A stretch of 64,000 nt of DNA from Kofleriaceae bacterium (GTDB lineage Bacteria > Myxococcota_A > Polyangia > Haliangiales > Haliangiaceae), in assembly GCA_018058095.1 (NCBI GenBank), contig JAGPCO010000016.1, positions 1 through 64,000 on the forward strand. The letters are read 5' to 3'. Below, piece by piece: positions 28,155 to 58,272 of this stretch. The notes beneath the pieces were generated by a model. That model saw only the letters and a program-made list of their open reading frames with translations. It was not told the DNA's origin and did no database searches. Numbering within the stretch: position 1 is the stretch's first letter; each line of letters starts with the position of its first letter. Made by a program: the position numbers and the translations under genes.

Positions 28155-29948
28155 ATGCGTAGCCTCGGTCCCTCGCTCCTGGCCCTCGGCCTCGCCACCG
28201 CGTCCATGCTGCCCAGCGAGGCCGCGTTCGCGCAGGCCGGCCCGTCGCCATTCCCGACCGGCCCGGCCGGTGGCGGCGAGGACGCCAACAAGCCGGCCGG
28301 TGTGGCCGAGGAGGCGCCCAAGACGCCGGGCCTCCTGCCGACCACGCCGGTGCTGCCGGCGCCCAAGAGCCGCCGCAAGCAGTGGAAGCTGCTGGAGCTC
28401 GACGGCTACTTCCGGCTGCGCACCGACTGGTTCAAGAACTTCTCGCTCGGCTTCTCCGACGACGCCGACCTCGGCGGCGGCCCGTTCCCGCGCCCGCTGC
28501 GCTGCTCGGCCACCGCGGCCCAGGAGTGCGACGACGACGTGCAGGGCGCCAACATGCGCCTCGAGCTGCGGCCGACCTTCAACCTCGACGAGAGCACCTC
28601 GATCCACACCACCGTCGACATCCTCGACAACGTGGTGCTGGGCGGCACGCCCGAAGGCAGCGCGTTCGACGGCACCAGCACGCCGCCGCTGGGCGCGTTC
28701 GCCGACGGCCAGGACGCGCCGCTGGCCGGCAGCAATGGCGACCGGGACTCGATCTGGGTCCGCCACGCCTGGGCCGAGGTGGCGCTGCCGCTCGGCCTGC
28801 TCAAGTTCGGGCGCATGCCCAACCAGTGGGGCCTGGGCCTCATGGCCAACGGTGGCGGCGACGATCCCATCCACGGCACGTTCGATCACGACGCCGACTT
28901 CGGCGACGCGGTCGACCGGGTGTCGTTCTCGACGACCATCCCCGGCACCAGCCTGCGCGGCGGCATCGCCAGCGACTGGCCGGCGACCGACCTCATCTCC
29001 AACCAGACCGACCAGGCCGGCCGCGGCGGCCAGCCGTGGGACCTCGACGACAACGACGACGTCAAGCAGTGGGTGCTGACCATCACCCGGATGGACACGC
29101 CGACCGAGCTGGCCGACAAGATGGCGCGCGGCCTCGGCTTCAACTGGGGCATCTACTTCGCCTACCGGACCCAGAGCAGCGACTCGATCGCGGCCGAGCA
29201 CACCCAGGGCGCGGCGGCCGATCCCGACGACTACGTCGTGCGCGGCTACAAGAGCTACCTCGGCAACGGCTGGCTGCGCGCCGGCTGGGGCCCGTACCGG
29301 TTCGAGGCCGAGGCGGTCGGCGTGATCGGCTCGATCGACAGCCTCGACGACGCTGGCCTGACCGATCCGGTCGACATCCGCCAGCTCGGCGGGGTCGGTC
29401 GGTTCACGTTCGACGCCCTCGACGGCAAGCTCACCCTGGGCGCCGAGGTCGGCTACGCCTCGGGCGACCAGTGGGACGGCACGCCGCAGGGATCGATCCA
29501 CGTGTCCGACGCCAACCTGCTGGGCGGCCCGGGCGACACCACCCTGAGCCGGTTCGTGTTCGACCGCGACTACAAGGTCGACCTCATCCTGTTCCGCGAG
29601 CTGATGGGCGCGGTGTCCAACGCCACCTACGTCAAGCCGTCGCTCCGCTACGAGCTGTCGAAGGCGTTCGAGTTCAAGGTGTGGAACGTGACCTCGTTCG
29701 CCAACAAGCCGGTCGCCACCCCGGGCAACGGCGGCATGTGGGGCATCGAGTTCGACGCCGACCTCGGCTACCGCAGCGGCGGGTTCTTCGGCGGCCTGTC
29801 GTACGGCGTGTTGTTCCCGCTGTCGGGCATGAACCACCCGTCCGACAACACCGACGACGGCGGCGCCGGCTTTGGCTACGGCACCGGCAACCTGGGCGAC
29901 GCCGGCACGGCGCATACGATCCAGAGCCGCCTCGTCCTGAGCTTCTGA
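28155..29948 (+). CDS. Porin-like outer membrane beta-barrel protein
   Basis: A 597-residue protein with a cleavable signal peptide (MRSLGPSLLALGLATASM..., AFA-QA cleavage near residue 27), a Pro/Ala-rich linker, and from residue 80 on alternating amphipathic strands such as GYFRLRTDWF, MRLELRPTFNL and FGRMPNQWGLGL. It ends in SRLVLSF, a C-terminal beta-signal with terminal Phe for BAM insertion. It resembles the myxobacterial TIGR04551-type outer membrane proteins, but I am not certain of that family. The ATG at 28155 has TGGAG upstream; a start 18 bases earlier is unlikely. A strong promoter precedes it and a tandem array copying its last 35 bases follows it. Confidence 0.8.
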   Translation: MRSLGPSLLALGLATASMLPSEAAFAQAGPSPFPTGPAGGGEDANKPAGVAEEAPKTPGLLPTTPVLPAPKSRRKQWKLLELDGYFRLRTDWFKNFSLGFSDDADLGGGPFPRPLRCSATAAQECDDDVQGANMRLELRPTFNLDESTSIHTTVDILDNVVLGGTPEGSAFDGTSTPPLGAFADGQDAPLAGSNGDRDSIWVRHAWAEVALPLGLLKFGRMPNQWGLGLMANGGGDDPIHGTFDHDADFGDAVDRVSFSTTIPGTSLRGGIASDWPATDLISNQTDQAGRGGQPWDLDDNDDVKQWVLTITRMDTPTELADKMARGLGFNWGIYFAYRTQSSDSIAAEHTQGAAADPDDYVVRGYKSYLGNGWLRAGWGPYRFEAEAVGVIGSIDSLDDAGLTDPVDIRQLGGVGRFTFDALDGKLTLGAEVGYASGDQWDGTPQGSIHVSDANLLGGPGDTTLSRFVFDRDYKVDLILFRELMGAVSNATYVKPSLRYELSKAFEFKVWNVTSFANKPVATPGNGGMWGIEFDADLGYRSGGFFGGLSYGVLFPLSGMNHPSDNTDDGGAGFGYGTGNLGDAGTAHTIQSRLVLSF

Positions 29949-30640
29949 GGCGCCGGCACGGCGGGTGATCACACCGCATCCAGAGCCGCCTCGTCCTGAG
30001 CTTCTGAGTCTCGGCGCCGGCGCCGGCACGGCGGGTGATCACACCGCATCCAGAGCCGCCTCGTCCTGAGCTTCTGAGTCTCGGCGCCGGCGCCGGCACG
30101 GCGGGTGATCACACCGCATCCAGCGCCGCCTCGTCCTGAGCTTCTGAGTCTCGGCGCCGGCGCCGGCACCGCGGGTGATCACACCGCATCCAGCGCCGCC
30201 TCGTCCTGAGCTTCTGAGGCGCCGGCGCCGGCACCGCGGGTGATCACACCGCATCCAGCGCCGCCTCGTCCTGAGCTTCTGAGCCTCGGCGCCGGCGCCG
30301 GCACGGCGGGTGATCACACCGCATCCAGCGCCGCCTCGTCCTGAGCTTCTGAGGCGCCGGCGCCGGCACCGCGGGTGATCACACCGCATCCAGAGCCGCC
30401 TAGTCCTGAGCTTCTGAGGCGCCGGCGCCGGCACCGCGGGTGATCACACCGCATCCAGAGCCGCCTAGTCCTGAGCTTCTGAGCTCCCGTGCCTGCCCGT
30501 GCCCGCCCCCGTGCCCGCGCGCGCGGGCCGGCGCCGGCACCGCGATTGATCACACCGCATCCAGCGCGGCCTCGTCCTGAGCTTCTGAGCGCGCGGACCG
30601 GCGCCGGGTTGGTCCTGAACTTCTAGTCCAGAGCCGTCCC
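29949..30640. repeat. Tandem array of nine 65-70 bp units derived from the porin 3' end
   Basis: Nine units follow the porin stop codon directly. Each has GGCGCCGG-rich DNA, the palindrome GTGATCAC (TTGATCAC in unit 9), ACACCGCAT, then CCAGAGCCGCCTCGTCCTGA and GCTTCTGAG, the last part being a copy of the end of the porin gene including its stop codon. Palindromes start near 29965, 30035, 30105, 30175, 30240, 30310, 30375, 30440 and 30547: spacing 70 or 65 bases until a 40-base GC-rich insert precedes unit 9. Variation is small (CAGAGC or CAGCGC; TCGTCC or TAGTCC). A decayed tenth unit is at 30601-30640. No unique spacers, so not a CRISPR. Confidence 0.92.
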
Positions 30641-30899
30641 GCCGCTTCCGAGGGCGATGGCCCGGGCCGTGGGTCGTGGGCGTGGCCGTCGACGTGTTCG
30701 TGGCCGGTCCCGTGATCGTGGCCGCGCTCGTGATCGGGAACGCTCGCCGTGGCCGTGGTCGACACCGGAGCGACCGATCGACGCCGGGAACGCCGCGCGC
30801 GCCGACCGCATGCCGCAGGTGCGACCACTCGGTGCAAGCCGGGTACCTGGGGCGACGCCAGCCCGACGTCAGATGGCGCCTGTAGGGTCACGGCTCGAC
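30641..30899. other. GC-rich intergenic region before radA
   Basis: 259 bases without a convincing gene. Much of it is a low-complexity run of CGTGGCCG/CGTGATCG-like words (30655-30760). An open frame runs through it into radA but codes only Arg/Gly/Pro-rich sequence. A possible radA -10 (TAGGGT, 30883-30888) lies 11 bases before its ATG. Confidence 0.5.
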
Positions 30900-32270
30900 A
30901 TGGCCAAGGCCAAAGCAGAGCGGACCCGGTCCGTGTACCGGTGCGAGGCGTGTGGGCACCTCGAGGCGAAGTGGCTCGGTCGGTGTCCGGCCTGCCAGGA
31001 GTGGAGCTCGCTCATCGAGCAGCCGGGCGGTGGCGCCACCCGAACCAGCGGCGCCGCTGACGGTAACGCGCCGCAACCGGTGACCGAGGTGGCCGAGCTG
31101 TCGGCGCGCGACCGCATCACCTGCGGCATCGCCGAGTTCGATCGCGTCCTCGGCGGCGGCCTGGTCCCCGGCAGCCTGGTCCTGCTCGGCGGTGACCCGG
31201 GTGTCGGCAAGTCGACCCTCCTGACCCAGGCCTTGGGCGGGATCGCCCGCGCTGGCCGCCCGGTGCTGTACGCCTCGGGTGAGGAGTCGGTCGCGCAGAC
31301 CGCGCTGCGGGCCCGTCGGCTCGGCGCCGGCGACGCCCGGCTGCAGGTGGTGGCGGAGACCGACGTCGACAAGATCCTCGGCCACGCCCGCGCCCTGCGC
31401 CCGGCGGTGCTGGCCATCGACTCGATCCAGACGGTGTTCACCGCCGAGCTCGACGGCATCCCCGGGTCGGTCGGTCAGGTCCGCGAGTCGGCGGCGCGGA
31501 TCCAGGCCTTCACCAAGACCACGGGCATCCCGACCGTGCTGGTCGGCCACGTCACCAAGGACGGCGGCCTGGCCGGGCCCAAGACGCTCGAGCACCTGGT
31601 CGACGTCGTCTTGCAGTTCGAGGGTGATCGAGGCGGCCCGTACCGCCTGGTGCGCGCCCACAAGAACCGGTTCGGCTCGACCCAGGAGGTCGGGGTGTTC
31701 GAGATGCGCGGCGCCGGCCTGGCCGAGGTGGCCAACCCGTCGGCGTCGCTGCTGGCCGAGCGCCCGGTCGGCGCGCCCGGCTCCGTCGTCGTCGCGTCCA
31801 TCGACGGCCACCGCCCGCTGCTGGTCGAGGTCCAGGGCCTGGTCGCGCCGTGCGCGGGCGGGCCGGGCCGGCGCACCGCCGCCGGCGTCGATGGCAACCG
31901 GGTGTCGCTGCTGCTGGCGGTGCTGGCCCAGCGCGCCACCTGCGACGTGCTCGGCTACGACGTCTTCGTCAACGTCGCCGGGGGCCTGCACCTGTACGAG
32001 CCGGCGGTCGACCTCGGGGTGGCGCTGGCCATCGCCTCGAGCGCACGTGGCCGCGCCGTCGATGCCCATACCGTGGTGTTCGGCGAGATCGGCCTGGCCG
32101 GCGAGATCCGCGCCGTGCCGCAGGCCGAGGCCCGGCTGGCCGAGGCGCGCCGGCTCGGGTTCCAGCGCGCCATCCTGCCGGTGCAGAACCGGGCCCACCT
32201 CACCGCCGATCCCGGCCTCACGCTCATCGCCGTCGATCGCCTCAGCGCGGCCATCGACGCCATCGCCTGA
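30900..32270 (+). CDS. radA: DNA repair protein RadA (Sms)
   Basis: A 456-residue RadA. The N-terminal zinc finger is CEACGHLEAKWLGRCPAC (residues 15-32). The RecA-like ATPase core has Walker A GGDPGVGKST and the RadA-specific KNRFGS motif (HKNRFGSTQEVGVFEM). The C-terminal Lon-like domain contains DVFVNVAGGL and ends in a normal way. RadA is a DnaB-type helicase that extends recombination intermediates in repair and natural transformation. The ATG at 30900 is chosen because the conserved protein starts there; the upstream frame is low-complexity. It is preceded by the porin repeat array and followed by an inverted-repeat element. Confidence 0.96.
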   Translation: MAKAKAERTRSVYRCEACGHLEAKWLGRCPACQEWSSLIEQPGGGATRTSGAADGNAPQPVTEVAELSARDRITCGIAEFDRVLGGGLVPGSLVLLGGDPGVGKSTLLTQALGGIARAGRPVLYASGEESVAQTALRARRLGAGDARLQVVAETDVDKILGHARALRPAVLAIDSIQTVFTAELDGIPGSVGQVRESAARIQAFTKTTGIPTVLVGHVTKDGGLAGPKTLEHLVDVVLQFEGDRGGPYRLVRAHKNRFGSTQEVGVFEMRGAGLAEVANPSASLLAERPVGAPGSVVVASIDGHRPLLVEVQGLVAPCAGGPGRRTAAGVDGNRVSLLLAVLAQRATCDVLGYDVFVNVAGGLHLYEPAVDLGVALAIASSARGRAVDAHTVVFGEIGLAGEIRAVPQAEARLAEARRLGFQRAILPVQNRAHLTADPGLTLIAVDRLSAAIDAIA

Positions 32271-45826: not shown

Positions 45827-46141
45827 GAGGACGCTGCCAAGCGCGGCGCAGCCGCGTTTGCAGCGACCTGCCCCGTGCCCGTGCCCGTGCCCGTGCCCGT
45901 GCCCGATCGCTCGGGCGGTGCCGGCCGCGATCGCCGGCACCTCGGCGGTCGATGCGTCGACATCTCAGACCGCCGCAAGGCCGTTGCCGCCAGCGTCCTG
46001 GCCCGCGCTCGAGTTGCTCGAGTGGCTCGTCGCCATGGCTGGCTCGTCCGGCCGGAGCCTGACCACCCAGTTTCGGGCACGGGCACGGGCAGGACGCTGC
46101 CAAGCGCGGCGGCGCGACTGTGTCGGGCCGCGCGCCGCGGC
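45827..46141. repeat. Gene-free region with direct and inverted repeats
   Basis: 315 bases. AGGACGCTGCCAAGCGCGGC plus G occurs twice (45828-45848 and 46091-46111). Between them, CCTGCCCCGTGCCCGTGCCC (45867-45886) and CGGGCACGGGCACGGGCAGG (46074-46093) are inverted repeats with one extra base; the left arm runs into five CCCGTG hexamers (45872-45901). The layout resembles the remains of a small insertion. No gene seen. Confidence 0.55.
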
Positions 46142-57179: not shown

Positions 57180-58139
57180 ATGTCGCCTTGCCCATGCCGC
57201 CTCCGCCACCTCGCCGGCCTCGGCCTGGCCGTGATCCTCGCCGGCTGCGGCGACGATGGCGCCCGCCCCATCGACGCGCCAGGGGTCGCGCCGATCGACG
57301 CCGGCCCCACGCCCGACGGCGACGGCGCGGCCCGGACCGGGCTGGGTGGCGTCGAGGTGATCGAGGCCTGGACCGTCACCGATCTCGGCGCCGGTCCGAC
57401 GCCGCAGCGCTGGGCCGACCTGCGCGCGCGCTTCTACCAGGACCACGAGCCGCGCTGGCACCACGAGGTGATGCAGGCCGGCGCGTGCCGCATGGTCAGC
57501 TACGCCGCCGCCAGCTGCGACCCGGCCTGCCTCGATGGGCGGTGCGTCGCGACCAACGTGTGTGAGCCCTACCCGGTCGAGATCTCGGCCGGGCGCCTGA
57601 CCGTGGCGGGCCTGGCCACCACCGTGGAGATCGATCCAGTCGACACCCTGTACGTCCTCGGCCAGCAGCTGCCGGCCGAGCTGTTCGCTGACGGCGCGAC
57701 CATCAGCGCCAGCGTGGCCGGCGCCGCGCTGCCGGCGCTCAGCCTGACCACGACCGGCGTGCCGACGCTGCAGCCGGCGCTGACCGGCGACGTGGTCGCG
57801 GCGGGCCGGGGCCAGGACCTGACCCTGACCTGGACCCCGAGCACGGACCCGAGCGCGCGGGTGCGCCTGACCTACAACGCCAACAACCGCGGCCACGGCG
57901 CGCCGTACGACGCCATCATCACCTGCGAGGTCGCCGACGCCGACGGCACCCTGACCGTGCCGGCGGCGATGATGGACACCTTCCCGGCCACCATGGCCTG
58001 GCGCATCTGCGCCGGGCGAGACTGCCCGCCCTCGACCCTGCGCCGGTTCCACCACGTCGCCACCCCGGCCCTGGCCGGCGAGGTCGGCCTGACCGTGGCC
58101 AGCGAGTACTACTTCTTCGTCGATCACCCCGGACCGTAG
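57180..58139 (+). CDS. Lipoprotein of unknown function
   Basis: A 319-residue protein with a lipoprotein signal ending VILAGC followed by GDDGAR. After a Pro/Asp linker it has Cys-containing segments (GACRMVSYAAASCDPACLDG, VCEPYPVEI) and a beta-rich C-terminal half (residues 150-310), perhaps an Ig-like fold. I recognise no family. The ATG at 57180 is chosen; a GTG six bases earlier is an alternative. It lies seven bases after the PEP-synthase-like gene, so the two are likely one operon and may act together at the envelope. Confidence 0.72.
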   Translation: MSPCPCRLRHLAGLGLAVILAGCGDDGARPIDAPGVAPIDAGPTPDGDGAARTGLGGVEVIEAWTVTDLGAGPTPQRWADLRARFYQDHEPRWHHEVMQAGACRMVSYAAASCDPACLDGRCVATNVCEPYPVEISAGRLTVAGLATTVEIDPVDTLYVLGQQLPAELFADGATISASVAGAALPALSLTTTGVPTLQPALTGDVVAAGRGQDLTLTWTPSTDPSARVRLTYNANNRGHGAPYDAIITCEVADADGTLTVPAAMMDTFPATMAWRICAGRDCPPSTLRRFHHVATPALAGEVGLTVASEYYFFVDHPGP

Positions 58140-58190
58140 CGGATCACGCCCCAGGCTCGACGATCATCGACCATCGGCGCTCGCCGATCC

Positions 58191-58245
58191 GACGCGACGC
58201 GACGCGACGCGACGCGACGCGACGCGACGCGACGCGACGCGACGC
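58191..58245. repeat. GACGC pentanucleotide repeat, 11 units
   Basis: Eleven exact tandem copies of GACGC. Pentamer repeats change number by slippage; it lies outside any intact gene, 51 bases after the stop of the lipoprotein at 57180-58139. Confidence 0.9.
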
Positions 58246-58272
58246 GGACGGACCGCACCTCGCGCTCACGTG

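Follow-up and report, generated by a model that had tools for sequence, protein, structure and literature searches.

A tandem array upstream of radA in a Kofleriaceae bacterium repeats the 3′-end of an outer-membrane beta-barrel gene, stop codon included

The window analysed here, the whole 64,000-nt stretch of DNA, carries a tandem array in the spacer between a gene for an outer-membrane beta-barrel protein (28155–29948, + strand) and the DNA-repair gene radA/sms (30900–32270, + strand). The upstream gene, which ends with a TGA stop codon at 29948 and encodes 597–603 amino acids depending on the start, was assigned by NCBIfam to the TIGR04551 family of barrels with an AlgE-like fold (448.9 bits, cut-off 300), and the downstream gene was assigned to TIGR00416 (509.7 bits, cut-off 403). 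An AF2 model of the upstream protein, based on 23 sequences, was a beta-barrel with a mean pLDDT of 67.6, and its best solved matches in Foldseek were AlgE alginate exporters (E 3e-15; TM-score ~0.44 on the query and 0.59 on the target). The term porin, used for this gene in the original prediction, holds as a fold class on the predicted structure, while the function itself is putative. The two genes are separated by 951 nt, in which the gene caller found zero genes.

Nine head-to-tail units, each containing the last ~30 bases of the barrel gene including its stop codon, occupy positions 29949–30588 of the + strand and are followed by worn remnants up to ~30651. Unit 1 (29949–30007) is 59 nt long; units 2 (30008–30077), 3 (30078–30147), 4 (30148–30217) and 6 (30283–30352) are 70 nt long; units 5 (30218–30282), 7 (30353–30417) and 8 (30418–30482) are 65 nt long; and unit 9 (30483–30588), which is degenerate and carries a CCCGTG-rich stretch at 30484–30530, is 106 nt long. 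All units terminate in GAGCTTCTGA, at 30007, 30077, 30147, 30217, 30282, 30352, 30417, 30482 and 30588, respectively. The coordinates and the nine gene-end copies were thus correctly described in the original prediction, and the spacing of 65–70 that it gave applies to units 2–8 but not to the 59-nt first unit or the 106-nt ninth one with its low-complexity stretch. TRF reported 7.9 copies with 94% matches and a score of 886–931, which no other array reaches in the window or within the first 1.13 Mb sampled from the genome. Low-complexity runs of CGTGGC-like and CCCGTG type, similar to the stretch within unit 9, are also present in spacers at window positions 30681–30736 and 45872–45905. Elsewhere in the window, at 58190–58246, a perfect pentanucleotide CGACG is repeated 11.4 times ~50 nt past the end of a predicted gene (57180–58139), which is a possible length-variable site.

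The units are highly similar to each other. Across the last 59 nt, eight units differ at 0–3 positions and unit 9 differs at 3–5. The 8-nt palindrome GTGATCAC occurs in eight exact copies, one in each of units 1–8, at a roughly regular spacing alternating between 65 and 70, and is replaced by TTGATCAC in unit 9. Unit-to-unit similarity was greater for neighbours than for distant pairs (Spearman 0.45, permutation P 0.025), with unit 9 the most diverged. Beyond it, worn pieces of additional units, GGTCCTGAACTTCTAG and TCCAGAGCCGTCCCGCCGCTTCCGA, were recognized at 30604–30651 (+ strand) by alignment to the gene end, the first piece by eye; the remnant at 30627–30651 aligned with a score of 13, as high as only 1 of 505 control spacers, and the last remnant stops ~250 nt before the radA start. 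Neighbour similarity together with the most diverged units at the distal end fits local slippage or unequal exchange with decay at the far end. As none of the lengths 59, 65 and 70 is divisible by three, the frame changes with each unit and no continuous reading frame runs through the array; for this reason, and because the spacer has no called gene, a coding role of the array was rejected.

The source of the unit is the gene end itself. The last ~50 nt of the barrel gene (29897–29948, + strand), covering the last beta-strand and the stop codon, constitute the duplicated segment, and 30 nt of it are identical in units 1 and 2, so that the first repeat copy lies inside the open reading frame and includes its stop. 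The linker block of the unit had been considered absent from the gene end, which proved partly incorrect: CGGCGCCGGCACGGCG of the unit matches CGACGCCGGCACGGCG of the gene (29897–29912) at 15 of 16 positions, and the local alignment score of 14 was reached by 0 of 569 control windows of the barrel gene. It follows that ~50 nt of the gene end were duplicated and not just 30. This origin of the linker rests on the local match, since an anchored global alignment of linker and gene had a poor control, with 58 of 1706 windows being as good. Within the duplicated segment lies a small expansion containing GTGATCAC, and what is new in the unit is a short stretch around GGTGATCACACCGC, plus linker growth by GGCGCC and TCTC. 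These results support the proposal that part of the 3′-end of the gene was fused to adjacent sequence and then amplified. The last strand (residues 586–596), which ends in Phe, is encoded by the 30 nt that were copied, and relatives end in ..TAHTIQxRLVLxF; the copy within the gene is therefore constrained, unlike the downstream ones.

The unit is confined to one locus. A genome search for further units, as had been recommended, recovered this locus only, so the unit is not dispersed; a search with the unit in 318 genomes of the class returned gene ends and noise only, and pattern scans of genome and viral contig collections, as well as a plasmid search, gave zero exact unit matches. A MIRU- or REP-like dispersed element, for which many loci would be expected, was rejected on this basis, and a CRISPR array was rejected because the entire unit repeats and unique spacers are absent. 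Units above ~10 bp in head-to-tail copies at a single locus are what characterizes a bacterial minisatellite, and this is what was found. When the barrel-gene locus was compared among relatives, the array was not conserved. The barrel gene is at most 57–58% identical to its counterparts in other genomes of the genus. In several same-order relatives the radA zinc motif lies 78–131 nt after the barrel stop, compared with 1026 nt here, so that only tens of bases separate the two genes there; others have radA inverted relative to the barrel gene, the orientation being not conserved in the genus. A relative from another genus of the family (G018) carries, in its own barrel-gene/radA spacer, a 32-bp array unrelated to the present one, ~120–255 nt past the barrel stop.

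The same kind of event was found at other gene ends. Using TRF on sampled contigs with reading of the loci, plus a search for downstream copies of the last 24 nt of each gene, five further gene-boundary arrays were identified in 1.8 Mb of the genome, four of them copying the 3′-end and stop of a gene and the fifth a stop/start junction; the original treatment of the case as singular was therefore mistaken. The four comprise a 56-bp repeat in 2.7 copies (contig C14, 61250–61399) from a protein-kinase-like gene with a response-regulator-like C-terminal part, a 94-bp repeat in 2.2 copies (C27, 23121–23323), an 89-bp repeat in ~5 copies (C37, 2694–3212) from a minus-strand Fe-S oxidoreductase-like gene, and a 96-bp repeat in 2 copies (C40, 6191–6381). 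The fifth, of 95 bp in ~4 copies (C4, 16695–17075), includes the GTGA stop/start overlap of RlmE-like and TsaC-like genes. Gene-end arrays are also present in a relative (G019), where a 183-bp array of 4.7 copies (score 1430) begins at a gene end (C72, 4892–5741). In the genome under study, a 201-bp array of 4.3 copies (C36, 31844–32713; score 1467) with a period divisible by three lies inside a predicted gene and is likely a protein repeat.

The placement of arrays was then compared with chance over 1.82 Mb, ~24% of the genome, with 1434 genes from a home-made gene caller and 88% coding sequence, counting arrays with a period of 25 or more and a score of 100 or more; the counts are small. Forty-three arrays lie inside genes, 6 across a stop, 1 across a start and 9 in spacers, and all 43 intragenic arrays have a period divisible by three. 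Among the 15 stop-or-spacer arrays, 6 straddle a stop where random placement predicts 4.2 (P 0.21 for at least 6), which is no excess. Start-straddling is depleted: 1 of 16 arrays crosses a start, compared with 4.65 expected (P 0.03 for at most 1). The corresponding values in G019 were 4 of 8 against 2.3 for stops and 0 of 8 against 2.45 for starts, and 2 of the 13 arrays called intragenic there have periods not divisible by three. Such a distribution would be expected from duplications occurring at any position, with selection eliminating the ones that shift a frame or disturb a gene start; a duplication across the stop does no harm, as the gene is still terminated by the first copy.

Collectively, these results make it probable, at roughly 0.83, that the array is a selectively neutral minisatellite that originated from a tandem duplication straddling the stop codon and expanded by slippage or unequal exchange. 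A tandem duplication of ~50 bp that reached from within the barrel gene into the spacer would have straddled the stop codon and would have been tolerated, since the gene's own copy keeps its own stop and the protein is unchanged. Released from coding constraint, the additional copies would then have gained small expansions, namely GGTGAT with neighbouring bases in the unit and GGCGCC and TCTC in the linker, after which they may have multiplied through slippage or unequal exchange between neighbours, and those at the distal end would now be wearing out. The order of these steps, the slippage or exchange mechanism and the neutrality are what we infer from the sequence relationships. A point against neutrality is the strength of the array, which ranks first in the window and the 1.13 Mb sampled and whose nine copies are a high number. 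The strong conservation of the 30-nt gene part is explained by recent amplification, although constraint could explain it too.

An alternative with an outside chance is that the array length tunes the expression of radA, or uncouples radA from the barrel gene, in the manner of a spacer VNTR. The gap of 951 nt, much shorter in most same-order relatives, would agree with this, as would the rnc-fpg1 spacer of Mycobacterium tuberculosis, which contains ~280–360 bp of repeats compared with a few bp in most other mycobacteria and in which the repeat length correlates with fpg1 mRNA (PMC2734929). That locus, VNTR3239/ETR-F, shares with the present one a spacer enlarged to hundreds of bp directly before a DNA-repair gene; however, its composite direct repeats of 55 and 79 bp start 40 bp past the rnc stop and are not described as a gene-end copy (PMC2734929), and strain length variation and the correlation with expression were measured at the M. 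tuberculosis locus. Tuning of radA is further argued against by a sigma-70 scan, which found no promoter-like site in the region, by the variable orientation of radA within the genus, and by the position of the array, which starts at the barrel stop and ends with its last remnant well short of radA. A still slighter chance is given to a copy-number rheostat, in which the number of units would alter 3′ processing of the barrel-gene mRNA or radA expression and which the lineage would use at several genes; such a reading would concern a GC-rich myxobacterial lineage.

It is improbable that the array is an assembly artefact or has a wrong copy number, despite the draft state of the genome (227 contigs) and the assembly errors that tandem repeats are known to cause (PMC6868369). 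Distinct unit variants in an ordered pattern and irregular unit lengths are unlike the product of a chimeric join, and gene-end arrays also occur on other contigs and in a relative; the exact copy number is uncertain.

A structure in the 3′-UTR that stabilizes or terminates the barrel-gene mRNA, as originally suggested for the transcript 3′-end, is very improbable. The array does directly follow the stop, and each unit can form a short hairpin around GATC, but RNA folding of six units was no more stable than that of dinucleotide shuffles (z 0.22 to 1.11), so that no hairpin beyond chance was found; scans for terminators and sigma-70-like promoters returned zero within the array, and an Rfam search gave no family, its single match, to a microRNA family, being due to chance and well under the gathering score. 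The lack of conservation in relatives argues in the same direction. GCGCCGGCGCC, considered as a special post-stop element, was rejected, as it is common everywhere (0.20 per kb in spacers and 0.26 per kb in coding sequence). Variation of the C-terminus by recombination, another role once proposed, is not borne out either: the shared 30 nt are nearly identical, with the same stop and the same frame, and recombination would therefore only add or delete units and leave the C-terminus unchanged. Very improbable as well is an array of binding sites for a protein recognizing GTGATCAC. Although there are eight exact palindromes at roughly regular spacing, other spacers show no enrichment of the motif, with 3 occurrences compared with 2.1 expected; unit 9 has lost it, and the 65/70 spacing shows no helical phasing (R of 0.42 at 10.5 bp, compared with a mean of 0.37 and a 95% point of 0.70 in the random-spacing control).

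A close counterpart of the array is known from Borg elements, whose tandem repeats have their first unit within gene ends (PMC9879509). The arrays of both are head-to-tail, lie in spacers and start inside the end of an open reading frame, and, as in this genome, the unit lengths of Borg arrays within reading frames are always divisible by three, while most of the intergenic ones are not (PMC9879509). Borg repeats are perfect, A-enriched and carried by large linear archaeal extrachromosomal elements, whereas the present ones, which belong to a bacterial genome, are GC-rich and imperfect. MIRUs resemble the gene-boundary arrays in having units of 40–100 bp at gene junctions, and the C4 array at its GTGA overlap looks alike; however, MIRUs are dispersed over ~41 loci and appear mobile (PMC2734929, PMC12548453), unlike the single-locus unit described here. 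The present array is a further example of an already published kind, arrays starting in gene ends.

A nine-fold gene-end pattern can thus follow from random tandem duplication plus selection, under a survivorship model in which duplications within genes persist only if the frame is kept, those crossing a start are depleted and those crossing a stop are nearly free. The counts provide a base rate for judging gene-end repeats in GC-rich genomes, and the array itself is a candidate VNTR marker for the species.
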